Assembly: GCA_023146575.1 (NCBI GenBank)
Contig: JAGLBU010000158.1
Coordinates: forward strand, 1-10,955
Source of the DNA: Methylococcales bacterium
GTDB lineage: Bacteria; Pseudomonadota; Gammaproteobacteria; Methylococcales; Methylomonadaceae
Length of the DNA stretch: 10,955 nt
Reading direction: 5' to 3'
Part shown: positions 1 through 10,955 of the stretch, one piece after another
How positions within the stretch are numbered: the stretch's first letter is position 1
Layout of the letters: every line of letters begins with the position of its first letter
Program-made: the position numbers and the translations under genes
Notes under the pieces: model-generated
What the model saw: the letters and a program-made list of their open reading frames with translations, nothing else
Databases searched by the model: none
Told to the model about the DNA's origin: nothing

Positions 1-2
1 TA

Positions 3-1190
3 AAAATCGACTCACTGGTTATTTATGATGCAAATGATGAAATTGTTGAGCGTGAAATTAAAGAAAGTCAACTCAGCGCCCAATCAAGTGACAAAGGTGA
101 ATACCGTCACTATATGCTCAAAGAAATTTATCAACAACCACAAGCCGTTAGACAAACATTAGAAGGGAATTTTCTAGCTAATGTCTTACAAGACAGCGCT
201 TTTGGTCACCAAGCGGCTGAAATTTTTAATAAAATTAAGACGGTTCAAATTATTGCCTGCGGAACCAGTTATCATTCAGGGCTAGTCGCACGCTATTGGT
301 TTGAACAATTAGCAAAAGTCCCTTGCCAGATTGATGTTGCCAGTGAATTTCGATACCGCTCGCCCGTTATTGCTGAAAATACTTTAATTGTCACCATTTC
401 ACAATCAGGTGAAACTGCTGATACACTCGCCGCCTTAAAAGAAGCGAAAAACCTTGGTGCTAAATACTCCCTAACCATTTGTAACGTTGCCGAAAGCTCC
501 TTAACCCGTGAATCAGATCTCTCTTTTTTAACCAAAGCTGGCGCTGAAATTGGTGTTGCCTCGACCAAAGCCTTTACCACTCAATTAGTTGCGCTATTAA
601 TGTTAGTCATGGCAATTGGAAGACGCTTTGAATTAAGTCAAACCCAAGAAGAGAAAATTACCACCGCCTTATTCAGCTTGCCAGAAAAAATAGAACGGGT
701 CTTAAAACTCGACCAACCAATCAAAGACTTATCCGAGCAATTTACCGAAAAACAACATGCTTTATTTTTAGGTCGTGGAACGCATTATCCCATTGCAATG
801 GAAGGGGCATTAAAGTTAAAAGAAATTTCCTATATTCATGCCGAAGCCTATCCTGCTGGCGAACTTAAACATGGGCCTTTAGCCTTAATTGATAATGACA
901 TGCCCGTAATTATTATTGAGCCGAATAACAGCTTGTTAGAAAAATTAAAATCGAATATGCAAGAAGTCAGCGCTCGTGGCGGACAATTGATCGTCTTTAT
1001 GGATGAAAGCCTGAAAGCCTCTGAGGATGAAAACACCCAAATTATTAACATCCCTAGCATTACTGCCAATGAAATTGCACCGATCATTTACACCATTCCA
1101 CTGCAATTATTGTCCTACCATGTCGCGGTGTTAAAAGGTACTGATGTCGATCAACCTCGAAACTTAGCCAAATCAGTTACGGTTGAATAA
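3..1190 (+). CDS. glmS: Glutamine-fructose-6-phosphate aminotransferase (isomerizing), 5'-truncated
   Basis: GlmS makes glucosamine-6-phosphate from fructose-6-phosphate and glutamine, the entry step to UDP-GlcNAc, peptidoglycan and LPS, in the cytoplasm. The frame is open from the first bases, so the true start and the N-terminal glutaminase domain lie upstream; about 395 codons are present of roughly 609 in E. coli. The fragment holds the end of the glutaminase/linker region ([10 protein letters not shown], with the Met at position 114 being internal, not a start) and both SIS sugar-isomerase domains. Visible sugar-phosphate binding and catalytic motifs are [52 protein letters not shown], and the C-terminal LAKSVTVE whose Lys forms the sugar Schiff base. 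It is nearly collinear with the E. coli enzyme. Regulation (for example a GlmZ-like sRNA) cannot be judged because the leader is outside the window. Confidence 0.98.
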
Positions 1191-1204
1191 TTAACCTTAC
1201 CACC

Positions 1205-1240
1205 TTAGCCCATGTCATTTTCGTGGGCTAAATTCTTTTG
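1205..1240 (+). terminator. Hairpin terminator after glmS
   Basis: A perfect 8-bp inverted repeat, TTAGCCCA (1205-1212) and TGGGCTAA (1224-1231), encloses an 11-base loop and is followed by a T-rich stretch (ATTCTTTTG). It starts 15 bases after the glmS stop and lies between two convergent genes. The T-tract is modest, and the opposite strand lacks a good one, so it probably serves mainly glmS. Confidence 0.7.
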
Positions 1241-1243
1241 CAA

Positions 1244-2092
1244 TCACCCCAATTTATATAACCACTCTAAAATATAATCATTAACCAAAGTTATTAAACA
1301 AATACCATCTTCTATACAGGCTATTTGCGACAACTTAAACAACCCTAACCCACTCACCACAACTAATCCTGCACCGACCCAGCGCTTAAACACCCGATCA
1401 TTTTGCGTGATTTTATGATGCGCTTTTAGCCCCACGATGTGTCCAATCGCCGCAATAGGGATAAAACATAATGCTTCTATAAAATGCACATCAACCGATA
1501 AAACCACAAAGGTGGTCATTTTAATCGTCACTAGCGTAAACCAAAGCACAAACAAAGTATCACGCAGGCGTTCACGTTCTACATTTCGCATAAAGACTGC
1601 CACCATTAACGGTGCACCTGTTAACGAAATACCTGCAACATAACCGCCGACAATCAACAATAATTTGTCTACCCAGTTTTTTTGACTTTCAATCGCGCGG
1701 TTAAACAACCAAATAGTGCCATAAAAAATAGTGACCGTATAAATAAACACATTTAGCCATAATGTGGGTAAATTCACCAATCCAAACACCCCCATCAACG
1801 CAGGCGGAATGATAAACCTCAGCGAATAACCTAAATAACGCCAATCCACATGATGCAAACGGCGACTCAAGGTTAAGCCAGAAAAAAACAGTAAATGCAC
1901 GCCAATCATCGGCAGCCACAATAATAAATCAGGACGAACAAATAACATCAGCGGTAAGCCCAACGCCGCACCACCAAAGCCTAACCCCGTACGTACAAAC
2001 CCCGTCCAAATAAATAAAAGTCCAATAATCAGGGTTTCATTTAAGCTTAAATCAAATAGAATCGGCTGAAATTGGTTTAAAAAATCAATCAT
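1244..2092 (-). CDS. TSUP (TauE/SafE) family sulfite/organosulfonate permease-like membrane protein
   Basis: Integral inner-membrane protein of 282 residues with about eight hydrophobic helices. The family carries small anions, often sulfite, sulfonates or thiosulfate, across the membrane; the actual substrate cannot be read from sequence. The characteristic pair of half-repeats is visible: glycine-rich TGLGFGGAALGLPL near residues 35-48 in the first half and GGYVAGISLTGAPLMVAV near 149-166 in the second. The region near 227-254 (HKITQNDRVFKRWVGAGLVV) matches the usual last helix of the family. A tail of about 28 residues with two cysteines (C259, C265) extends beyond that point. The start at 2092 precedes the first hydrophobic segment; its ribosome site is weak, so translation may depend on the gene at 2131-2508, which ends 38 bases upstream on the same strand. 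No other sulfur genes are in view. Confidence 0.85.
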   Translation of the reverse strand: MIDFLNQFQPILFDLSLNETLIIGLLFIWTGFVRTGLGFGGAALGLPLMLFVRPDLLLWLPMIGVHLLFFSGLTLSRRLHHVDWRYLGYSLRFIIPPALMGVFGLVNLPTLWLNVFIYTVTIFYGTIWLFNRAIESQKNWVDKLLLIVGGYVAGISLTGAPLMVAVFMRNVERERLRDTLFVLWFTLVTIKMTTFVVLSVDVHFIEALCFIPIAAIGHIVGLKAHHKITQNDRVFKRWVGAGLVVVSGLGLFKLSQIACIEDGICLITLVNDYILEWLYKLG

Positions 2093-2130
2093 TAAAAAAA
2101 TACCGCATGTAAGTCATTTTATGAACCTGT

Positions 2131-2508
2131 TTATTTTTTACTCGGACAGCGGTATCTAAATGCTGGGGTTTCGGTCAGTGGGTCGGTAATATCGGTTAAT
2201 TGGCGTTTATCTTTTGATAAGCGATAATAATTAAACGCGAGCCATGTTTCACCTTCACCTGTTAGTGCTGAAACAAACGCAACCTCATTCTCTCCATTTT
2301 TGACAATTGAAACAATTCGTCCCTCACTTTCCCACGCCTTAATATAGCGTGCGGTAATGGTTAAATTCATAACATCTGTTGCACCACAATGTTTTAAGTC
2401 ATCCGCCCAGTCGCCCTGATATTGCATAGGAACACCACCTTTAGATTCTCCCTCCGCAAAAGCTTGGCTCGCCATTAAAATAAAAACCATTAATACTAAT
2501 TTGAACAT
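2131..2508 (-). CDS. Small exported protein of unknown function
   Basis: 125 residues. A typical Sec signal peptide is visible (hydrophobic LVLMVFILM, then ASQAFA, likely cut before residue 19), leaving a mature protein of about 107 residues, probably periplasmic. The mature part opens with YQGDWADDLKHCG and ends with FRYRCP; C41 and C121 are the only cysteines and could form a disulfide joining the two ends. The strand-rich middle (WESEGRIVSIVK, GEGETWLAFNYYRL) suggests a small beta-barrel-like fold, which is inference. The start is supported by an AAAGG ribosome site (complement of 2517-2521) eight bases upstream. It probably shares a transcript with the TSUP permease that follows 38 bases later, but nothing links the two functionally. 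I do not recognise the family. Confidence 0.75.
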   Translation of the reverse strand: MFKLVLMVFILMASQAFAEGESKGGVPMQYQGDWADDLKHCGATDVMNLTITARYIKAWESEGRIVSIVKNGENEVAFVSALTGEGETWLAFNYYRLSKDKRQLTDITDPLTETPAFRYRCPSKK

Positions 2509-2616
2509 GTTTTACACCTTTCTTAAGATTGAAAATTTAATTCTATCCTAATTCCTCATAACGCCTCTATCTGTGCTATAAATTAATTTTAGTTTTTTAT
2601 TTTCAGAGTAAATTCA

Positions 2617-2730
2617 ATGACCAAAACAGAGTATGATTTATGTGTTATTGGTGGTGTGGCAAGGCTTGTGACAGCGGCTGGAGCAGCGACATTAGACGTA
2701 AAAGTTATTAGAATTTATACAAGATTTTAA
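2617..2730 (+). pseudogene. Decayed 5' fragment of a flavin-dependent disulfide oxidoreductase gene
   Basis: A 37-codon frame begins MTKTEYDLCVIGG and continues with LVTAAGAATL. This matches the N-terminal FAD-binding beta-alpha-beta (GxGxxG) segment of mercuric reductase/dihydrolipoamide dehydrogenase-like enzymes, which usually read close to DLCVIGGGAAGLxxAAGAATLGAKV. Here the GGGAAGL core has become GGVARL, the next conserved region is altered (TLDVKV), and the frame stops where an intact enzyme would continue for about 450 residues. The conserved CxxxxC redox centre is not found before the protease gene at 2878. The likely reading is a remnant left by a deletion with local substitutions. 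It could still be expressed as a short peptide, but no conserved function is expected. Confidence 0.6.
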
Positions 2731-2877
2731 GTGAAATCATGATAACATTATCACAAAAGGATGCGTTGTTTCACTGTTTTAAAGCGTTTCGTTTTTCGAG
2801 TAACGCCTCATCTTAGCCTCTCCACTTACGTTTTGAATAACTGTTTGAACTTTTAAAATAATAGGACAAATAATGCT
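2731..2877. other. Gene-free spacer upstream of the ClpP-like gene, with a small palindrome
   Basis: This follows the oxidoreductase remnant; together with 2509-2616 it makes a gene-poor stretch of about 370 bases. It contains the 14-base palindrome TGATAACATTATCA (2740-2753), flanked more widely by GTGAAA (2731-2736) and TTTCAC (2769-2774), which could be an operator or a weak hairpin. A poor promoter-like pair, TTGAAT (2833) and TAAAAT (2854) with a 15-base spacer, precedes the downstream gene. No other coding remnant was recognised. Confidence 0.3.
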
Positions 2878-3675
2878 ATGACAAATAATCTACAAAACCT
2901 TACAAACCTTGATATTGCACGTGCAAAAAGTATTAATAGTGAATTTCACACCCTCTTTATAGATGATCGAGGGGAGCGAAAAACACTGGTTAGCGCCGAA
3001 GAAAAAACCTATAAAATTACCCCCAAATACCGTGTTTTTCGAGTCTATATTTCAAGTTTTAGTGAAATAAAAAAAGGCTTACATGCGGTTTTTAATGAAT
3101 TAAGAAAAGCCAACCCAAATGATGAGCTAGAGCTTAGAATTAATTCTGGCGGTGGTTATGTGAGGGAAGGTCAACAGTTTTTTAATGTGATGCTCGAAAA
3201 ATTTAGCGGTCGCACCACAGCGTACTTGGATAACGTTGGCTACAGTATGGGCGCGTTGTTATTTTGTATGGCTGAAAAACGGGTAATTTACCCTTATTCT
3301 GATCTCATGTTTCACGATTATGCGCATTTTGTGGTGGGAAAAGGCGGCAATGTTAAAAGTCGAGTCAAACACAGCTCACGAACCATGAAACAATTTTTCC
3401 ATGATATTGTGGTACGTCAAGATTTTTTGACCGAAGCTGAATTTAAAGAAATGTTACTTGGTAAAGATTTCTGGATGAATGCGAAAGAAATGTGCCAGCG
3501 TGGTATTGCAACAGATGTGATGATAAACGGCAAAACTATTACAGCGAAAGCCTTTTTAAAATTACTAAAAAGAAAGAAAAAAACAGCAAAAAAACGAATG
3601 GAAAAAGAAAATGCGTTGTTATCTAAACCCAAAACCGTTGAAAAAAAATCAGTGCAGAAAAAAGTTAAAAAATAA
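2878..3675 (+). CDS. ClpP-like serine protease with basic C-terminal tail
   Basis: 265 residues, no signal peptide, so presumably cytoplasmic. Residues about 52-230 form a ClpP/crotonase-fold protease domain. LRINSGGGYVREG (86-98) corresponds to the INSPGG substrate-binding strand of ClpP. GYSMGA places the nucleophile at Ser123, MFHDY the histidine at His146, and GKDFWMNAKE the aspartate at Asp197, so the triad looks complete. It differs from housekeeping ClpP in its long N-terminal region (about 50 residues) and a lysine-rich tail (about 230-265, e.g. KRKKKTAKKR). Such divergent ClpP-like proteins also occur in phages as head-maturation proteases, but no phage gene is nearby. Start: ATG at 2878 with AGGACA at 2863-2868; the nearby ATG at 2873 stops after two codons. 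It is apparently monocistronic, ending at a hairpin. Whether it needs a Clp ATPase partner is unknown. Confidence 0.8.
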   Translation: MTNNLQNLTNLDIARAKSINSEFHTLFIDDRGERKTLVSAEEKTYKITPKYRVFRVYISSFSEIKKGLHAVFNELRKANPNDELELRINSGGGYVREGQQFFNVMLEKFSGRTTAYLDNVGYSMGALLFCMAEKRVIYPYSDLMFHDYAHFVVGKGGNVKSRVKHSSRTMKQFFHDIVVRQDFLTEAEFKEMLLGKDFWMNAKEMCQRGIATDVMINGKTITAKAFLKLLKRKKKTAKKRMEKENALLSKPKTVEKKSVQKKVKK

Positions 3676-3687
3676 TAGGTAAATATA

Positions 3688-3728
3688 AAAGAAGGGTGCT
3701 TAAACAATAGCCTTAAGCACACTTCTTT
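3688..3728. terminator. Bidirectional hairpin terminator between convergent genes
   Basis: AAAGAAGGGTGCTTAA (3688-3703) pairs with TTAAGCACACTTCTTT (3713-3728), a 16-bp stem with one mismatch and a nine-base loop. The stem edges give an A-run on one side and a T-run on the other, so it can work in both directions. It lies 12 bases after the ClpP-like gene and just beyond the stop of the leftward gene ending at 3735. Confidence 0.8.
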
Positions 3729-3734
3729 ACCGTA

Positions 3735-4241
3735 TCATTCAAGATCAAAATTAATGCACGTTTTATTTGCTGATTGGTCTGCTGATTTTCGTGCTAATTC
3801 ATTTTGCGATACCTGTACGGGGATTCTCTCAACAAGACAGGTTACTTTATCCGTAATTTTTGTCACGCTTAAATATGCTTTACTATCACTTCTTATATCG
3901 CTCACTCTTATAATAACAGCCATTGGAATTAATTTTTTCCCCACTTTTTTCATTCGCCATTCTGCCTTTTTTCCAACAGATGAAATATTTAAAGCAATCG
4001 TACTCTGGTGATTATCTGGCGCTTCAATCGAAAGGTTTTCGTGATAATTTTCATCAATGACATTAATCGAATACCCCTTAATCCCCACGCAATGTTTTAG
4101 TGAAGCAGGAATGCCATCTGGACGATGGTTAAATGCAAGTGTTTTGCATTGTGATAAATCAGTGTAAACCGAGGTATTTTCTTGTGCAAGCAACAAGGGA
4201 GGAAAAAATAAGCTACTTAATAAGAAAATAATGCGTTTCAT
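3735..4241 (-). CDS. Exported hypothetical protein with four cysteines
   Basis: 168 residues with a clear signal peptide (KR, then hydrophobic IIFLLSSLFFPPLLLA, probable cut near residue 19-20). The mature protein has four cysteines, C32, C51, C135 and C162, enough for two disulfides. The pattern (VYTDLSQCK near the start, HCVGIKGYSINV, EWRMKKVGKKLIPMAVIIR, then a cysteine strand, NELARKSADQ and a final Cys near the C-terminus) resembles from memory a widespread uncharacterised exported protein family of proteobacteria with a GY...EWR...P.AviR...NelAR.iAD signature; its function is not known to me. It lies 13 bases after the NlpE-like gene on the same strand, with AAGG as a weak ribosome site, so the two are probably co-transcribed and may act together in the periplasm. 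Confidence 0.75.
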   Translation of the reverse strand: MKRIIFLLSSLFFPPLLLAQENTSVYTDLSQCKTLAFNHRPDGIPASLKHCVGIKGYSINVIDENYHENLSIEAPDNHQSTIALNISSVGKKAEWRMKKVGKKLIPMAVIIRVSDIRSDSKAYLSVTKITDKVTCLVERIPVQVSQNELARKSADQSANKTCINFDLE

Positions 4242-4254
4242 TTTAAAACCTTGG

Positions 4255-4788
4255 TTAATGAATATGAACTGAACGGGCTTTATTTTTATCGGTTCTCAGT
4301 AAGGTATATTTATTTTGATTGCCTTTGAGTGTCACACCATCTGGGCTTAATAGAATTAATTTTCCTTCATTTTTGATTCTATATTTTTGTATCTTTCCAG
4401 CTTTTCGTGACGTGAGTGTGACCATGCGCGTTTTTTTATTCCACTCATATTTTCCCTTCTCATAATATTCTTTATTAGAGGATCGGGCATATTGCGTGAC
4501 CAACAAATAATTTTGTTTATTTTTAAGCGATAAGGTCATCTTTACACCCGCGCAATCATCACACGGTAAATAACCATAAAAAACCCCGCGATATTTTTGA
4601 CTTTCCTCAACAGGTTTCATCTCATGTTTCGCGTGTCCCGCTTTTTCACGTAATTTTTCTCTGGCTCGCTGTACGTCCGCCATAATTTCCATATCAGACT
4701 TGGCGCTAGCAGGGTTAAAAGCAATGGATGATACACTGACTGATAATAATATAAGTATTTTTGCTGGAGAAATTAAGCGTATTTTCAT
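4255..4788 (-). CDS. NlpE N-terminal-like periplasmic protein with CxxC motif, no lipobox
   Basis: 177 residues from ATG at 4788. The signal peptide runs through KILILLSVSVSSIAFNPASA. After a charged helical stretch (about residues 33-63) comes an NlpE N-terminal-like beta-barrel: YRGVFYGYLPCDDCAGVKMT, with C76 and C79 forming the CxxC that in NlpE is linked to copper and to surface sensing, then YEKGKYEWNKKTRMVTL and LSPDGVTLKGNQNKYTLLR, the usual strand order. NlpE is an outer-membrane lipoprotein that activates the Cpx envelope stress pathway; here the signal peptide has no cysteine, so the protein should be soluble in the periplasm, and the second (OB-fold) domain of E. coli NlpE is absent. 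A TTG in frame at 4803 would add five residues; ATG is preferred although neither has a strong ribosome site. Role in metal or envelope stress is inferred. Confidence 0.75.
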   Translation of the reverse strand: MKIRLISPAKILILLSVSVSSIAFNPASAKSDMEIMADVQRAREKLREKAGHAKHEMKPVEESQKYRGVFYGYLPCDDCAGVKMTLSLKNKQNYLLVTQYARSSNKEYYEKGKYEWNKKTRMVTLTSRKAGKIQKYRIKNEGKLILLSPDGVTLKGNQNKYTLLRTDKNKARSVHIH

Positions 4789-4803
4789 AATTTTTTTAAC
4801 CAA

Positions 4804-4822
4804 GGGATTGTGAAGAAATCCC
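4804..4822 (-). promoter_or_regulatory. Small hairpin just upstream of the NlpE-like start
   Basis: On the minus strand GGGATT (complement of 4817-4822) and AATCCC (complement of 4804-4809) form a 6-bp stem with a seven-base loop, 15 bases before the ATG. The G-run adjoining it is the only purine-rich sequence near the start. It might affect translation or end transcription coming from the arsS-like gene, but no T-tract follows directly. Confidence 0.25.
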
Positions 4823-4882
4823 CCCTATTTAACCGCAATAAAGCGCTTGTTTACAACTTTTTTTCAAATCAAACGCCCGATA

Positions 4883-5842
4883 CTAGGAAAGTGCGCCACT
4901 ACAGCTACTGCCTTGCCCTGCGGTACAGCCATAACAATGCTGACGAGTTGCAATTTTGGACGGGATAAAATGGCCGTCAATTAAATCACTCAGATGGGTT
5001 TGGCTGTGTTGATTTGATAACGATAATTTCAGCATTTGATTAAAATCACAATCATAAACAAAGCCTTGCCAATCAACACTAATGGTATTAAGACACATCA
5101 CTTGTGCCAAGGTTTCAGGATTATGGTTTTTCACTAATAATTGCATATAGTCATCAAACCCTCCTTTACTGATCAAAGTACTACCAAAGCGTTTAATTGG
5201 CATATTGGTAATGGTGTATAAGTGGTTAAAATCAATATTATAGTGTTGTTTTAAATGGATTTTATAGCTGGCTTCTAAGGCTTTTTGAGGGGGTGGCAGA
5301 GTTGCATCTTGTGGATTAAAAACTAAATCCAGTTTTAAAGGACTATTTTTTTGTCCATAACCCAAATCATTTAAGCGTTTTAAGGCGGTTAAACTTTTTT
5401 GAAATACACCATTACCGCGTTGTTTATCGACATTTTCTTCTAAATAGCAAGGCAATGAGGCAACGACGATCACCTTATATTCGGCCAAAAACTGCGCTAA
5501 ATTTTCATACTCAGGTTCTTCTAAAATCACTAAATTACAGCGATCAATCACTTCAATATTTAATTGCGTGGCTTCTTGAATCAAATACTGAAAATGTGGA
5601 TTCATCTCAGGCGCACCCCCTGTTAAATCCAGCATTTTAACCCCTGTTTTTTGTGCAAACGCTAACACTTGATCAATAGTGTCCTTGCCCATTAATTCAC
5701 TACGCGTAGGGCCTGCATTCACATGGCAATGCAAACAACTCAAATTACATAAATAGCCTAAATTAAGTTGTAGTATTTCTAATACCCCACGGGTTAACGT
5801 TGGAAAAGTCGAGCTTTCTAAATGCGGCAGGGTTTCAATCAT
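4883..5842 (-). CDS. arsS: Radical SAM/Cys-rich protein, arsenosugar biosynthesis ArsS type
   Basis: 319 residues, cytoplasmic, close to the usual length. The radical SAM cluster motif CxxxCxxC is at C32, C36, C39 (LCNLSCLHCHVNAGP), followed by LDLTGGAPEMNP near 71-82, the SAM-binding equivalent of the GGEP motif. The C-terminal part carries further conserved cysteines (VMCLNTISVDWQGFVYDCDF and QHCYGCTAGQGSSCSGAL), typical of the ArsS family and suited to binding extra iron-sulfur clusters. ArsS forms the dimethylarsinoyl-5'-deoxyadenosine-type precursor of arsenosugars from methylated arsenic made by ArsM. Some family members carry selenocysteine at the C-terminus; here there is an ordinary TAG stop and only cysteines. 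No arsM or other ars gene is in the window. The start ATG at 5842 has no clear ribosome site. The 79-base gap to the NlpE-like gene leaves co-transcription open. Confidence 0.85.
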   Translation of the reverse strand: MIETLPHLESSTFPTLTRGVLEILQLNLGYLCNLSCLHCHVNAGPTRSELMGKDTIDQVLAFAQKTGVKMLDLTGGAPEMNPHFQYLIQEATQLNIEVIDRCNLVILEEPEYENLAQFLAEYKVIVVASLPCYLEENVDKQRGNGVFQKSLTALKRLNDLGYGQKNSPLKLDLVFNPQDATLPPPQKALEASYKIHLKQHYNIDFNHLYTITNMPIKRFGSTLISKGGFDDYMQLLVKNHNPETLAQVMCLNTISVDWQGFVYDCDFNQMLKLSLSNQHSQTHLSDLIDGHFIPSKIATRQHCYGCTAGQGSSCSGALS

Positions 5843-6183
5843 AAATTTTTAGCTTTTGAGAGGGCATAACAATCGTTCAATACCCTTTATGGATACAAGG
5901 TTTTATCAGGGCTAGTGATCGTAATAGAAACTCAACCATCTTCTTTTAACCTGAGCAAAGTTGTTTGGACGAATTATCTTCTTCATACTCTATTGAGGAT
6001 AAAATCTTGCATTTATTATCTGTTAAATTAGTATATACTGAACAAATGCTTTTTTTTCTGTAGTGGCGGCTGTAGAGCTTAAAAATACCAGTACTCTATT
6101 CATAAAAACCACCTTTTGAGTATAAATGAAGGCTCCATATTATACCAAAAATAATAATAATTTTATCTATTTATAACCTTCCT
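5843..6183. other. Divergent intergenic region, 341 bases, no gene seen
   Basis: AT-rich spacer between the leftward arsS-like gene and the rightward channel gene. It holds the candidate promoter at 6116-6143 and a perfect 10-base palindrome AGTATATACT (6030-6039) that could be an operator. TTGCAT (6007) stands 21 bases before TATACT (6034), too far for a normal promoter. No tRNA, riboswitch-like structure or coding remnant was recognised. Confidence 0.4.
6116..6143 (+). promoter_or_regulatory. Candidate sigma-70 promoter for the channel gene
   Basis: TTGAGT (6116-6121) and TATTAT (6138-6143) are separated by 16 bases, matching four and five of six consensus positions. Transcription would start near 6150, leaving a leader of about 34 bases before the ATG at 6184. 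In such AT-rich DNA chance matches are common. Confidence 0.35.
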
Positions 6184-9117
6184 ATGCCAATCACTCGTCA
6201 GAAAAAACTTTTTTTTATAATTTGCATAATAATAGCCCTTGGAATAATAGGTTCACTAATCACCTACTTTTTTTTATTTCAAAAAAATAAACGTGAAATA
6301 ACCTATATAGGACTAACCGTTACAGAAGACAGGTCTATTGAAAAACCAACTCTTTCCATGCAAAATGGCGCACAACTTTTTTTAGATGAGTTTAATAGTT
6401 CTAAGCGTTTAAAAAGCCATAAAATTAATTTAAAAAATATTTCTCTCTCTACTTCGGGGAATAATGCGTTTAATAATGCCAAAACATTAGAGAGTGTCGT
6501 GGCTATTATTGGTAATATAAGCGCAAATAATATTTCATATATTGACACACTTTATAACAATAAAAATATTTCTCTCTTAAATAACCAGTCTATTAAAAAA
6601 GTTATTACCACTCGTAATAACTGGCTTTATTCATTAAGTTTTGAGGAAGACCACCAAGCAAAATTTATTGCAAATTACACTCATAATGTTTTAGATGAAG
6701 ATATTATTACCATTGTTCATGCCAATACAAACCAAGCCCTTAATATCACAAATCAGTTTGCCGCTGTCTATGAACGTTTTGGAACTTTAATTAATTACAC
6801 CTATCCTTTTGATATCAACAATACACAGCAATCTATTGCTGATATTATTTATGAAATAAAAGACAAGCAAGATTTAGGGATGATTTTTATTGTAGGCAAT
6901 GCCGTTGAGTCTGCCCGTTTTATTGTTCAAGCACGTCAGGCTGGCATCGAAAATAAAATAGTGGGTACGGATGTTGTTGGTCACAATGAATTTATCAATG
7001 CAATCAATCAATTAAAAAAAGACAATACGCCAACTGCAGATTATACCCATCAATTACTATTTACCTCCCCTTTATTATTTGATACCGCAAATGCTAAAGC
7101 CCAGCAGTTTAAAAACCTTTATTTAAATAAATATGGCATAGAGCCTGATTGGGTTGCTGCTTATGCTTATCATGCGGCAAAAATAATTACAGCAGGAATG
7201 TTAGAAAATTCAACAAAAAAATTAGCTCCAACCCCATCCTATCGCCAAAAAATTAAAGCCTATCTTGCTACTTTATCTGATAAAGGAAAACAAAAAATAG
7301 ATATTGGCGAGGCTGTTTTTCTAACAAAAAATGGGGAAAGAAAAATTCCCGTTCAAATGGGTATTTATGAAGGGCGTGACATTATTGCCGCAACAACACA
7401 ACTACAACCCATTAAAAAAAATATCACTATTGATTATTTGCAAGAATTAAAAAAAGGTAAAATTTTATATGTAAATAATACATTTATGTATAAAACAGAT
7501 GTTATTTATACGGGAATTGAATTAAAAAGAATAAATAGTATTGATTTTGACAAAGAAATAGCAGAATTAGACTTTAACATTTGGTTTCGTTATAAAGGAA
7601 ACTTTAATCCAGCCGATATTGTATTTTCAAACCTTGTTGCAGATCAAAAAATTTCACTTAAAAAACCTCTTTTATCGGATGAAAAAAAAGGTTATTTCTT
7701 TCGGTTATATCATATTAAAGCAAAATTTAAATTAAATTTTCAATCGTTTAAAAGAGTTTATGGTTCACATTTAATAGGTTTAGATTTTAAGCATAGAGTC
7801 TTAAATAAAAATAATATTATTTATGTAGCTGATGTTTTGGGTATGAACTTCTCTAAAAAATTACGTTTAAAAGAAAAACTTGAAAAAAATACTCTCTTAT
7901 TACCCTCTTTAGGTTGGGGAATTCAAGATGCATGGCTTTCACAAGGAATCAAACGCGAGTCTTCTTTAGGGGATCCATCCTATGTTGGCTATAATGTAAT
8001 GCCCGCTCTATTTTCAAATATAAATTACAGTATTTTATTAAAAGAAACAAAGGTCAACATACATAACTTAATTCCTACTGGCTATTATATTTATATTAGT
8101 ATTTTTGGTTTTGTTGCAGCCGCTGCTGCACGGATTATTGATCAAAAGCTTACAGGGCATTTTTGGTTAATGTCTTCTTGGATTATTCGTGTTATCTCTT
8201 GGCCATTACTGCTTATTTCTATCAGTAACTTAGGAATTGAAGAGGCGCTTAAAAAAGAACTTACCCCTGAATACATAGAACAATTAATACGAGCATCCGA
8301 TGCTGGGCTTTGTTTATTAATTTCGGTATTAGTTAATTTAGCTATTAATCGATTTTACTTTAAATCTATAGAACAAAAAACAGGGCATAAAGTTCCAGGG
8401 TTAATTCGATATTGCATCACCATTATTGTTTATATTATAAGTATCTTTTATATTATCGCTGTTATCTATAATAAGCCTTTAGGGCATTTATTGGCAGGAA
8501 GTGGTGTTTTAGCCATGATTATTGGTATTGCTATTCAAGGTAATGTTGCTAATATTTTTTCTGGTATTTTACTCAATATAGAAAAACCTTTTTCTATTGG
8601 TCATTGGTTAAAAATTGGTGCGTTTGATAAAATAAAAGTAATTGATATTACATGGCGATCAGTGCGGGTAATAGATCGACAAAATAATATTATTAGTATT
8701 CCTAATGGAACGGTAGCAAGCAGCCAAATAATTAATTATTCTTCTACCTATAGTCGTATTGACCAAGAATTTTCATTTTCAGAAGAATATAAGCCCTCAT
8801 TAGTTATTTCCTTACTTAAGAGGTCATTAGAAAATATGCCTGAAATAAATATCATAAAAGCAACACAACAAAGCTTAATATCCTTAGAAGTTAATGGTAC
8901 AAATACTTATTTAGTGAGTTTTTTTATTAAAGATATTGGTGAAGAAATACCGCTCAAAGTGAAAGTTTTAGAAGCTATTCATGCCTCTTTTTTACAAGCA
9001 GGTTATATCACTATAGCGCCAGATGAAAATACCAGTACAGAAGATACGCCCCTAGTTCATCCTTCAACGCCTAAAAGTTCTCTTGAACCTTTAAATAATG
9101 ATGCAGATAATAATTAA
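6184..9117 (+). CDS. Multidomain MscS-type channel with N-terminal type 1 solute-binding and ligand-gated-channel-like domains
   Basis: 977 residues. A basic N-terminus and a membrane anchor (about 9-33) place residues 38-630 in the periplasm. Residues 38-405 look like a type 1 periplasmic binding domain of the branched-chain amino acid receptor kind: ITYIGLTVTEDRSIEKP, VVAIIGNISANN, DLGMIFIVGNAVESARFIV, and YGIEPDWVAAYAYHAAKIIT. Residues about 415-630 are beta-rich (ELDFNIWFRYKGNF, GYFFRLYHIKAKFKLNF, HRVLNKNNIIYVAD, NINYSILLKE then LIPTGYY) and resemble the extracellular domain of prokaryotic pentameric ligand-gated channels; this is weaker inference. Then come helices at about 632-652, 660-683, 704-723 and 739-763, and the MscS pore helix and beta domain (LLAGSGVLAMIIGIAIQGNV, NIFSGILLNIEKPFSIGHWL, ITWRSVRVIDRQNNIISIPN) and a short cytoplasmic C-terminus. 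The helix count puts the MscS domain in the cytoplasm, as expected. No clear ribosome site precedes the ATG. The repeat-protein gene follows 21 bases later. Confidence 0.85.
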   Translation: MPITRQKKLFFIICIIIALGIIGSLITYFFLFQKNKREITYIGLTVTEDRSIEKPTLSMQNGAQLFLDEFNSSKRLKSHKINLKNISLSTSGNNAFNNAKTLESVVAIIGNISANNISYIDTLYNNKNISLLNNQSIKKVITTRNNWLYSLSFEEDHQAKFIANYTHNVLDEDIITIVHANTNQALNITNQFAAVYERFGTLINYTYPFDINNTQQSIADIIYEIKDKQDLGMIFIVGNAVESARFIVQARQAGIENKIVGTDVVGHNEFINAINQLKKDNTPTADYTHQLLFTSPLLFDTANAKAQQFKNLYLNKYGIEPDWVAAYAYHAAKIITAGMLENSTKKLAPTPSYRQKIKAYLATLSDKGKQKIDIGEAVFLTKNGERKIPVQMGIYEGRDIIAATTQLQPIKKNITIDYLQELKKGKILYVNNTFMYKTDVIYTGIELKRINSIDFDKEIAELDFNIWFRYKGNFNPADIVFSNLVADQKISLKKPLLSDEKKGYFFRLYHIKAKFKLNFQSFKRVYGSHLIGLDFKHRVLNKNNIIYVADVLGMNFSKKLRLKEKLEKNTLLLPSLGWGIQDAWLSQGIKRESSLGDPSYVGYNVMPALFSNINYSILLKETKVNIHNLIPTGYYIYISIFGFVAAAAARIIDQKLTGHFWLMSSWIIRVISWPLLLISISNLGIEEALKKELTPEYIEQLIRASDAGLCLLISVLVNLAINRFYFKSIEQKTGHKVPGLIRYCITIIVYIISIFYIIAVIYNKPLGHLLAGSGVLAMIIGIAIQGNVANIFSGILLNIEKPFSIGHWLKIGAFDKIKVIDITWRSVRVIDRQNNIISIPNGTVASSQIINYSSTYSRIDQEFSFSEEYKPSLVISLLKRSLENMPEINIIKATQQSLISLEVNGTNTYLVSFFIKDIGEEIPLKVKVLEAIHASFLQAGYITIAPDENTSTEDTPLVHPSTPKSSLEPLNNDADNN

Positions 9118-9138
9118 CAGGTGACTGGGGTATATAAA

Positions 9139-10955
9139 ATGAATAAATTTAAGACATTCAGTTTAAATTTCATCCTATTGATTAACATTATATTTTTCTC
9201 ACCTTTAGAGGCAAAAGAAAATAACAAAGTACCTCATATTGTTTCTGAACAAGAATATAAGTCCTTAAAAAAAGCACTTTACACAGGAAAAAATTTAAGT
9301 CCTTTATTAAAAGGAATATTATCAAAACTAAAAACTAAGAAGGAACAAGCTTTATTTCTTAAATCCCTTCAGCGATCATTTAAAAAAAATAAATCCATTG
9401 AAAAAGCCTTGGCGTTAGCGAGATCAAGCCTTGTATTACATCGTAAAACCCGTCAAAAAATCAAGAAACCCCACTCGAATTCTCCTTTTATTAAAACACT
9501 TGCATCAGGAAAAAGTATTAAAAAGGTATTTCCATCCTATTCTCCTAAGTCACAAAATAGGCTATTCAATAAAAAACTATTAACCGAGTTGGGTAAGGGT
9601 AAAACAACGAAAACCGCCATTTTAAATGCAAATAAACATATTACAACAATTACTGCGACCAAAAAATCAATTTCACAAAAAAATAATAGCGTCTTGTTAG
9701 CACTTGCAAAAGGTAAATCTGTTGAAGCCTTTATGGATAAACAAGGTATTCCTGCTTTTGCTCAAAAAAAATTTAAAAAAACATTTCTTAAAAAAATAGC
9801 AGGAGGCCATTCCATTTCAAAAGCTAATGCCCAAGCAAAGAAAATTATTGGTATGTCTAAAAAAAAGCCATTAAGCTTTTTGCAAGCCTTAGCAACGGGA
9901 AAAAACATTGATAAAATAATAGCAAATAAAAATATTAAAAAAAACCTTAATTCTATATTATCAAAGGGAGGAAATCCTTCAACAGCTATTGCCACAGCAG
10001 TTAAAAACACCAAAATATCTATTGCAACTAAAATCAATCAGGATAACCCTAAAATAAAATTATTCACTGCTTTATCCTCTGGAAAAAACGTCTCGAAAGC
10101 GGTAAACCAAGTGATAAAAAGTAATGGTGAAACTGGAAGCATAACCCCTAAAAAATTAGTGTCATCTATTGCCAGAGGTGCAAATATTTCTACCGCATTA
10201 AAGCGAATAAAAAACCTATCCGAAACTCGAAAAAAGTTAAAAACAAATACCGCCCCATCGCCTTTAATTACTGCCATTGCATCGGGTAAAAATATCCGTC
10301 AAGCGGTAAAAAATAAACCTCAGTTTCAATCAAAGGTTATTAAACAATTAAACAAAGGAAAAAGTCTTTCAACCGCCATTAGAACAGCACAACAACAAAC
10401 CGAGCAACTTGAAATAGCATCCGCTAGAACAACACAGCCTCAAAGTGATTCAGGTTTAATGGTGGCACTGGCAACAGGAAAAAATATAACGGGTTCGTTC
10501 GATAAACTACCAACTAAAATATCACCTAAAACAGTTCTTGCTGATTTAAACAAAGGGAAAACCCTTATCGTGGCACTAAATCAAAACGATACAGCTAAAA
10601 CAATTACAGCAGAAAAAGGTTTATCAACTGAAACGACTAATGAAATAATTGTTGCTACGACCTTAAATAACAAAAATCCTCAGCGTAAACCTAAAAATAA
10701 AACAGTTATTGCAACACCTCCAAAGAAAAATAAACCTCAGCGTAAGCCTAAAAATAAAATAGTTATTGCGGCCGTTTCAAAGAAAAATAAACCTCAGCGT
10801 AAACCTAAAAATAAAACAGTTATTGCGGCCGTTTCAAAGAAAAACAAACCTCAACGTAAACCTAAAAATAAACCAGTTATTGCGGCCGTTTCAAAGAAAA
10901 ATAAACCTCAGCGTAAACCTAAAAATAAAACAGTTATTGCGGCCGTTTCAAAGAA
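9139..10955 (+). CDS. Exported lysine-rich repeat protein, 3'-truncated by the window
   Basis: Open for 605 complete codons with no stop before the window end. ATG at 9139 follows CTGGGG (9125-9130) by eight bases, a usable ribosome site, and lies 21 bases after the channel gene, implying one transcript. The start MNKFKTF plus hydrophobic SLNFILLINIIFFSPLEA reads as a signal peptide, probably cut near residue 25 before KENNK, so the protein should be exported. Residues about 41-482 hold fourteen degenerate units centred on GK (for example FLQALATGKNIDKI and IKQLNKGKSLSTAI). From residue 510 a 19-residue tandem repeat, KKNKPQRKPKNKTVIAAVS, runs to the window end. The composition is dominated by Lys, Ala, Thr, Ser and Asn with no cysteine seen, giving a very basic protein. 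No known domain is recognised; binding of polyanions (cell-surface polysaccharide, extracellular DNA) is a guess from charge. The minus-strand frames opposite it are shadows. Confidence 0.8.
   Translation, partial: MNKFKTFSLNFILLINIIFFSPLEAKENNKVPHIVSEQEYKSLKKALYTGKNLSPLLKGILSKLKTKKEQALFLKSLQRSFKKNKSIEKALALARSSLVLHRKTRQKIKKPHSNSPFIKTLASGKSIKKVFPSYSPKSQNRLFNKKLLTELGKGKTTKTAILNANKHITTITATKKSISQKNNSVLLALAKGKSVEAFMDKQGIPAFAQKKFKKTFLKKIAGGHSISKANAQAKKIIGMSKKKPLSFLQALATGKNIDKIIANKNIKKNLNSILSKGGNPSTAIATAVKNTKISIATKINQDNPKIKLFTALSSGKNVSKAVNQVIKSNGETGSITPKKLVSSIARGANISTALKRIKNLSETRKKLKTNTAPSPLITAIASGKNIRQAVKNKPQFQSKVIKQLNKGKSLSTAIRTAQQQTEQLEIASARTTQPQSDSGLMVALATGKNITGSFDKLPTKISPKTVLADLNKGKTLIVALNQNDTAKTITAEKGLSTETTNEIIVATTLNNKNPQRKPKNKTVIATPPKKNKPQRKPKNKIVIAAVSKKNKPQRKPKNKTVIAAVSKKNKPQRKPKNKPVIAAVSKKNKPQRKPKNKTVIAAVSK
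9259..10584 (+). repeat. Degenerate protein repeats with GK core, 14 units in seven A/B pairs
   Basis: Within the exported protein the pattern hydrophobic-x-x-L-x-x-G-K-(S/N/T)-(I/L/V)-x-x-A recurs with its GK position at residues 50, 84 (NK), 124, 154, 192, 223 (GH), 254, 277 (GG), 315, 347 (GA), 383, 407, 447 and 473. Odd units read like SPLITAIASGKNIRQAV, with A(S/T)GK; even units read like KQLNKGKSLSTAI, with (K/R)G and a following STA. A-to-A spacing is 74, 68, 62, 61, 68 and 64 residues. DNA identity is low, so these repeats are old. Each unit could be a short helix-loop-helix with the GK at the turn. Confidence 0.65.
10666..10955 (+). repeat. 57-bp in-frame tandem repeat array, running off the window
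   Basis: Units of exactly 57 bases start at 10666, 10723, 10780, 10837 and 10894, with a sixth beginning at 10951. Each encodes 19 residues, consensus KKNKPQRKPKNKTVIAAVS. The first unit is the most diverged (NNKNPQRKPKNKTVIATPP); the later ones differ by a few substitutions (T to I or P in the TVIA segment, AAC for AAT, CAA for CAG, AAG for AAA). High DNA identity and a fixed in-frame period point to recent duplication or gene conversion, so copy number probably varies between strains. Confidence 0.95.

Follow-up and report, generated by a model that had tools for sequence, protein, structure and literature searches.

A pentameric-receptor-type sensor joined to an MscS-type pore in a family of predicted bacterial channels

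Introduction

Bacterial channels that combine a pore with an added ligand domain are known from two superfamilies, and the protein described here appears to draw on both. It is encoded by a single uninterrupted open frame (6184..9117, + strand, 977 aa) in a 10,955-nucleotide stretch of Methylococcales bacterium DNA (assembly GCA_023146575.1, contig JAGLBU010000158.1, positions 1 to 10,955), hereafter the window, and combines a type 1 periplasmic binding protein domain (PBP), a domain of the kind found as the extracellular domain (ECD) of pentameric ligand-gated ion channels (pLGICs; Cys-loop/Pro-loop receptors, among them the nicotinic and GABA-type ones), and a five-helix MscS channel. The bacterial PBP-I pLGICs of Tasneem et al. 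(PMC549065) likewise have a PBP-I domain followed by a pLGIC ligand-binding domain, both extracellular; however, their C-terminal pore is the four-helix one of pLGICs, whereas the window protein has an MscS pore and does not keep the pLGIC coupling pair. DeCLIC (PMC9897478, PMC12664993) resembles the window protein in carrying an extra periplasmic domain ahead of its pLGIC ECD, but this domain consists of two beta-rich lobes and the pore is that of a pLGIC, in contrast to the PBP and MscS pore of the window protein.

Among MscS-type channels, which normally open in response to membrane stretch, the low-conductance Escherichia coli channel YnaI shares with the window protein five membrane helices, the pore, and the cage, and forms a heptamer (PMC8137935). 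Bacterial cyclic nucleotide-gated (bCNG) channels, cited in PMC4560390, resemble it in joining an MscS pore to an added ligand domain. The same source takes homology over about 90 residues, spanning pore helix and upper vestibule, as the mark of the MscS superfamily, and the window protein shows this homology. Because it also speaks of "ligand binding domains" in some MscS subfamilies, PBP-MscS proteins may figure in the 2012 review of MscS subfamilies. In the literature searched by titles and abstract openings, with most subscription papers outside the scope, we recognized no fusion of PBP, pLGIC ECD, and MscS.

Domain architecture of the window protein

The window protein begins with a hydrophobic segment, an anchor or signal peptide (6211..6258, residues 10-25), followed by the PBP (6295..7398, residues ~38-405) and the pLGIC-type ECD (7471..8079, residues ~430-632). 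Four membrane helices resembling the YnaI paddle (8080..8478, residues 633-765) lead into the pore helix and beta domain (8479..8763, residues 766-860) and the C-terminal alpha/beta cage part (8764..9018, residues 861-945). In Pfam, Peripla_BP_6 matched residues 58-339 (E 3.6e-12, 47 bits, cut-off 31.7) and MS_channel_2nd matched residues 788-853 (E 4.3e-14, 52.8 bits, cut-off 20.2), while ANF_receptor stayed under its cut-off in the PBP (19.8 bits versus 25.4). The best PDB sequence match of the N-terminal half was 4gnr, an amino-acid ABC binding protein (residues 41-336, E 5.8e-13). That of the C-terminal half was YnaI (residues 678-889, E 3.1e-13), its nearest solved relative, in which the match holds no counterpart for the PBP and ECD. 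E. coli MscS also matched (E 2e-11), with an alignment reaching residue 940. Hydropathy averaged over the 59 aligned family members (see below) peaked at 10-25, 637-647, 669-681, 707-720, 745-764, and 770-790, which by this measure gives a single segment at the N terminus, four further helices, and the pore helix. Together with loop charges, these peaks support a topology with PBP and ECD in the periplasm, five membrane helices, and the cage in the cytosol. Thus, we consider it almost certain from its sequence that the protein has an MscS-type pore, and because its membrane part is MscS and lacks the four-helix pLGIC membrane domain, it is not a pLGIC. A cyclic-nucleotide domain, as expected of a bCNG channel, was absent by Pfam. 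The bCNG sensor is cytosolic, in contrast to the predicted periplasmic, pLGIC-type sensor of the window protein.

An earlier note on this DNA had proposed this order of domains in one frame, with four extra helices, and the open frame, Pfam, PDB, and hydropathy agree with both the order and the boundaries. Its type 1 binding domain, placed at about residues 38-405, corresponds to the Peripla_BP_6 and 4gnr matches, and the MscS profile hit at about 765-860, on which it had staked the whole idea, is present. Proteins with the same domain order, which it had suggested looking for, exist as well, as described next.

A family of PBP-ECD-MscS proteins

A protein database search, in which the 8000 candidates with the most words in common were scored, returned 62 hits. 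Both PF13458 and PF00924 were listed in 59 of them (P0001-P0059), all full-length proteins, three of which (P0049, P0052, and P0053) additionally carry a cytosolic cyclic-nucleotide domain. The window protein and P0002-P0059 form the 59 rows of alignment A1, with identities to the window protein of 24 to 64%. Among 299 pattern-matching DNA stretches, drawn from a single genome of each species, 239 encode a relative, and the best 80 were kept as loci; these include the isolates Azospirillum brasilense ATCC 49958, Magnetospirillum moscoviense BB-1, and Pseudoduganella ginsengisoli KCTC 42409. Distribution close to the window is patchy, with a full-length gene in 2 of 41 near genomes (its own and one of five genus-mates). 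No relative was found in viral contigs.

Comparison with the same-genus ortholog gave a ratio of nonsynonymous to synonymous substitution rates (dN/dS) of 0.20 overall and 0.14 to 0.25 across five parts (PBP 0.24, ECD 0.14, first helices 0.25, pore and beta domain 0.17, C-terminal part 0.23), at a dS of ~0.9 to 1.4, which is near saturation. By this measure, each part of the gene is under purifying selection. The 59 proteins with both domains, the isolate loci, and the dN/dS values of 0.14 to 0.25 together argue that the fusion is more than chance or misassembly. Across the family, conservation is highest in the pore helix and beta domain (mean 0.533, versus 0.431 for the ECD) and low in the cage part. 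Judged from these sequences, the MscS pore and its pLGIC-type sensor make a natural, widespread combination.

Homology of the middle domain to pLGIC extracellular domains

Two shorter hits of the database search, P0060 and P0061, contain PBP and middle domain without MscS, and by eye they show a pLGIC-like Pro-loop and a pLGIC-like strand ahead of the first membrane helix (pre-M1 strand). Therefore, we tested the homology of the middle domain. A hidden Markov model (HMM) covering residues 430-640 of the window protein, derived from all 59 A1 rows, was searched against 4695 proteins or frames plus shuffled and reversed decoys. After 142 strong hits, it found P0066, P0063, P0060, P0064, and P0061 (E 6.5e-30 to 1e-16), followed by the stand-alone pLGICs L086 (1.7e-11), L085 (3.3e-11), L110 (5e-10), L111 (8.4e-9), and L108 (0.005); the next target among proteins and decoys stood at E 9. 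L103-L111 had been retrieved by Pfam Neur_chan_LBD, and L086 matches GABA-A pi (3.9e-10), ELIC (3.8e-7), and GLIC (1.4e-4) in PDB. In the reverse direction, an HMM of the near pLGICs reached MscS-attached proteins down to 5.6e-11. Profile-profile comparison by hhalign gave the middle domain a probability of 97.9 with five near pLGICs (E 3.8e-13) and 99.9 with seven PBP-ECD proteins, and six canonical pLGICs scored 99.0 with the near pLGICs and 96.3 with the PBP-ECD proteins. Decoys were quiet (at most 1.4 for 40 column-shuffled profiles, 0.2 for the reversed one, and at most 0.4 for eleven unrelated profiles). The PBP-ECD proteins (P0060, P0061, and P0063-P0067; 646-706 aa) have, by eye, three membrane helices after the ECD and seem to be without the pLGIC M4.

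Further intermediates came from the order of Desulfamplus (Desulfobacterales), where P0060 has matches at E≤1e-20 in 33 of 145 genomes, some of the matches being lone PBPs or MscS fusions. Ten loci from these matches (L120-L129) code for PBP, ECD, and membrane helices, with two to four hydropathy peaks, at the threshold used, C-terminal of the ECD (PBP-pLGIC proteins). They were reached both by the profile of MscS-attached ECDs (5e-51 to 5e-35) and by the canonical pLGIC profile (1.6e-19 to 5.8e-10). In hhalign, the ten-protein profile scored 100.0 with the window family (E 5.9e-51), 97.8 with canonical pLGICs (1.2e-12), and 99.2 with near pLGICs (1.2e-19). It matched 267 distinct PDB sequences at E≤1; among the best 60, the first was a chimeric alpha-1 GABA-A receptor (1.1e-13), followed by GLIC/GABA-A chimeras, with GABA-A subunits from 5e-11 and GLIC and the glycine receptor at ~3e-9. 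One of the ten proteins, L121, reaches the Pfam cut-off for the pLGIC membrane domain.

Several results weigh against this homology. The middle-domain HMM did not list the six distant canonical pLGICs (L103-L107 and L109), the direct hhalign comparison with six canonical pLGICs was weak (probability 6.8), and the canonical-pLGIC HMM reached an MscS-attached protein only at 0.027 (reversed decoy, 0.76). A profile made from 13 pieces of the middle domain (A2) hit nothing in PDB at E≤1. The PDB matches of the PBP-pLGIC profile span the second half of the ECD plus the membrane domain, or the membrane domain alone, and the first third of the ECD, while collinear, aligns at noise level. In Pfam, residues 415-630 of the window protein have no family above cut-off (DUF7940 at 627-654 scored 15 bits versus 27) and no Neur_chan_LBD match. 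Neur_chan_LBD was below its cut-off in all ten L120-L129 proteins and, at E 0.02 to 0.16, on single relatives in sets of six (one), four (one), and ten (four). Nevertheless, the likeness of the middle domain to pLGIC ECDs drawn in the earlier note is upheld by the profile searches through intermediates and by the tree described below, and we regard homology of the window middle domain to pLGIC receptor ECDs, by way of these intermediates, as nearly beyond doubt.

Loss of the coupling pair and probable transfer of the sensor

In pLGICs, the charge pair of Pro-loop acid and pre-M1 basic residue has been described as a universal feature, perhaps involved in gating (Tasneem et al., PMC549065). We compared 12 pLGIC-type rows with 59 MscS-attached rows at the Pro-loop and pre-M1 places (alignment A4). 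In the pLGIC-type rows, the Pro-loop proline and pre-M1 arginine are present in 12 of 12 and the acid in 9 of 12, so that the pair occurs together in 9 of 12. The MscS-attached rows have the proline in 21/59, the acid in 6/59, and at the pre-M1 place arginine in 1/59 and lysine or arginine in 14/59. The Pro-loop motif pattern was found in none of the 59, nor was a Pro-loop acid ever combined with a pre-M1 basic residue. The window protein reads RVYG at the motif position (7753..7764, residues 524-527), with Gly 527 at the acid place, and Glu 621 at the pre-M1 place (8044..8046), the latter register being uncertain by one or two residues. The dependence of this register on the alignment speaks against a loss of the pair, as many rows carry basic residues at columns 620 and 623; because the acid is present in only 6 of 59 rows, an intact pair is possible in at most 6/59 whatever the register. 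Since the pair is not kept, coupling in these proteins must differ from that of pLGICs.

In a midpoint-rooted ECD tree that used 20 of the 59 MscS-attached rows, left out L120-L129, and had some long pLGIC branches, the MscS-attached ECDs form a single clade (support 99/97). This clade joins the seven PBP-ECD proteins with pLGIC-like helices (100/99), which themselves are weakly grouped (61/55). One MscS-attached clade beside the PBP-ECD proteins suggests that the sensor probably moved once onto the MscS pore. Thus, on sequence grounds, one channel family's chemical sensor appears to have been transferred in nature to the pore of another.

Both kinds of gene also occur side by side. At L130, a PBP-ECD-MscS gene with a cyclic-nucleotide domain (1603-5034, -) and a PBP-ECD-pLGIC gene (6302-8518, -) lie on the same strand 1.3 kb apart; with the same sensor on two kinds of pore in adjoining genes, this locus amounts to a natural swap experiment. 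At L085 and L086, one small gene separates the MscS fusion from a stand-alone pLGIC downstream of it. The small gene and pLGIC occupy 5724-7301 (+) in L085 and 6971-8581 (+) in L086, and the small gene of L085 is DUF4337. In L131, proteins of ~930 aa (1018-3810, - and 8457-11237, -) that unite two kinds of binding protein, Peripla_BP_6 and SBP_bac_5, in a single chain adjoin PBP-pLGIC genes.

Possible ligand of the PBP

The classical serine/threonine pocket motif for amino acids comes from LivJ-type proteins. Among the 20 rows displayed, four basal rows keep this motif; in the window PBP it was not seen, which counts against the chemical gating proposed below. The window PBP may thus bind another solute or nothing, and an amino acid as the ligand, suggested in the earlier note, does not find support in this family member.

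Proposed mechanism and alternatives

We propose that the protein is an inner-membrane channel made by domain transfer, in which a two-storey periplasmic sensor, a PBP clamshell on a pLGIC-type ECD, sits on a five-helix YnaI-type MscS subunit. A periplasmic solute would bind the PBP, and possibly ECD interfaces too, and alter the packing of the ECD ring. Via the short linker between ECD and membrane, the ring would then pull the first paddle helix and so change the opening tension of the MscS pore, giving chemical gating or tuning. In a chimera study of YnaI and MscS, the paddles are reported to determine the threshold pressure; a sensor attached to the first paddle helix would be well placed to tune it. 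As the weakest step, the channel would in many relatives probably act together with a type I secretion system that exports large surface proteins. We favor a sensor-transfer channel, chemically gated or tuned, as the overall explanation, somewhat above an even chance, and we think chemical gating or tuning of the MscS channel, taken alone, moderately probable. A fuller version we hold as likely to be wrong as right: a chimera of two unrelated channel superfamilies, in which a complete pentameric-receptor sensor (PBP and ECD) moved once onto a heptameric mechanosensitive pore and was rewired, the ECD forming a seven-fold ring or driving the seven-fold pore from another symmetry, and which in many lineages has come to serve the type I secretion of giant surface proteins as its chemo-mechanical sensor. 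The earlier note's question of how pentameric and heptameric symmetry would fit together is a genuine one.

The same observations can be read differently. The periplasmic domains might be a mechanical or structural tether to an exporter, the outer membrane, or a surface protein, with the pore opening by tension or a pull on the tether. Such a role would suit the type I secretion and giant surface-protein neighbors described below, the degraded amino-acid motif of the window PBP, and the lost coupling pair, but it sits poorly with purifying selection on both PBP (dN/dS 0.24) and ECD (0.14), with the amino-acid-type motif kept by basal members, and with the presence of the same sensor on pLGIC-type pores; we consider a tether rather unlikely. 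It is less likely still, and in our judgment improbable, that the protein is a solute receptor that has ceased to conduct and uses its MscS part for signaling to the cytosol or as a scaffold for assembly: conservation peaks in the pore helix and beta domain (0.533 versus 0.431 for the ECD), even though certain MscS subfamilies lacked mechanosensitivity in experiments (PMC4560390) and three relatives carry a cytosolic cyclic-nucleotide domain. That the middle domain is an unrelated beta-sandwich superficially like a pLGIC ECD is very hard to sustain, since the weak direct match to six canonical pLGICs (6.8) and the lack of PDB and Pfam hits for the domain alone are outweighed by the intermediate matches (5.9e-51 between window family and PBP-pLGIC proteins, 1.2e-12 and 1.2e-19 onward to canonical and near pLGICs, with quiet decoys) and by the collinear alignment from the Pro-loop place through the pre-M1 strand.

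If the sensor-transfer explanation is true, a pLGIC sensor can operate a pore of another fold and subunit number, and what an ECD needs for gating becomes directly testable. Such experiments are feasible because Azospirillum and Magnetospirillum isolates carry the gene.

Genomic neighborhood and type I secretion

Neighboring genes were clustered across 82 loci, probably 81 distinct ones because L004 and L023 (both 61968 long) are probably one contig taken twice. Full flanks, meaning 5 kb or more to either side, exist at 47 loci, which include neither of these two. The neighbors include TolC-, ABC-, and HlyD-like genes. In a Desulfamplus example, the HlyD gene is over its NCBIfam cut-off (366.6 versus 208.65), while the TolC (153.2 versus 225.15) and ABC (337.6 versus 693.1) matches are under theirs. 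Because the ABC profile may hit other exporters, we counted as a type I secretion system (T1SS) only loci with all three genes. With profiles built from the very loci counted, 39 of the 82 loci carried the trio, as did 33 of the 47 fully flanked ones. As a background, 51 over-cut-off HlyD matches were listed for 12 host genomes (~64.4 Mb), or ~0.012 expected per 15 kb, and the channel loci of these genomes have the trio in 7 of 12. Further neighbors include, for example, a giant protein with LamG and cadherin features in L048 and, in L086, a YDG/MBG protein. The counts of single-linkage cluster C2, which joined unlike repeat proteins, were not used as main evidence. No T1SS genes lie in the window itself, nor was HlyD matched in the genome it comes from (73% complete), and both absences count against such a link here. 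We judge a functional tie to type I secretion fairly likely for the family and less so for this genus. A 2016 paper (PMC4795631) called the biological role of prokaryotic pLGICs unknown; the T1SS linkage of the fusion family supplies genomic context for the pLGIC sensor module.

In the window, the next gene (9121..10953, +) starts 3 bases past the channel stop and runs off the end. This open frame encodes a repeat protein that probably carries a Sec signal and closes with a K/P-rich repeat; no Pfam family was found in it. A homolog follows the channel gene in the genus-mate too (L004/L023, E 5e-91). We do not claim it as kin of the secreted cargo of other loci, to which it gave weak cross-hits only (L037, 8e-14; L036, 4e-9).

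Other genes of the window include a lone Clp-protease-like serine protease (2878-3675, +) and an ArsS-family radical SAM protein of arsenosugar biosynthesis (4883-5842, -; TIGR04167, 460 bits versus 300). A TssM-like gene lies by the channel gene in L056 (10319-13693, +) and other Azospirillum loci (E 4e-19, below the NCBIfam cut-off). A PBP match in the window's own genome (L003) was set aside, as its sequence reads into calcium-type repeats and an OmpA-like end. In two settings, L003 (195-3471, +) and L032 (8334-10378, +), an HflC/band-7-like membrane protein adjoins a PBP-I protein; its HflC match is weak (E 2.6e-4, below cut-off) and occurs in L032 only.

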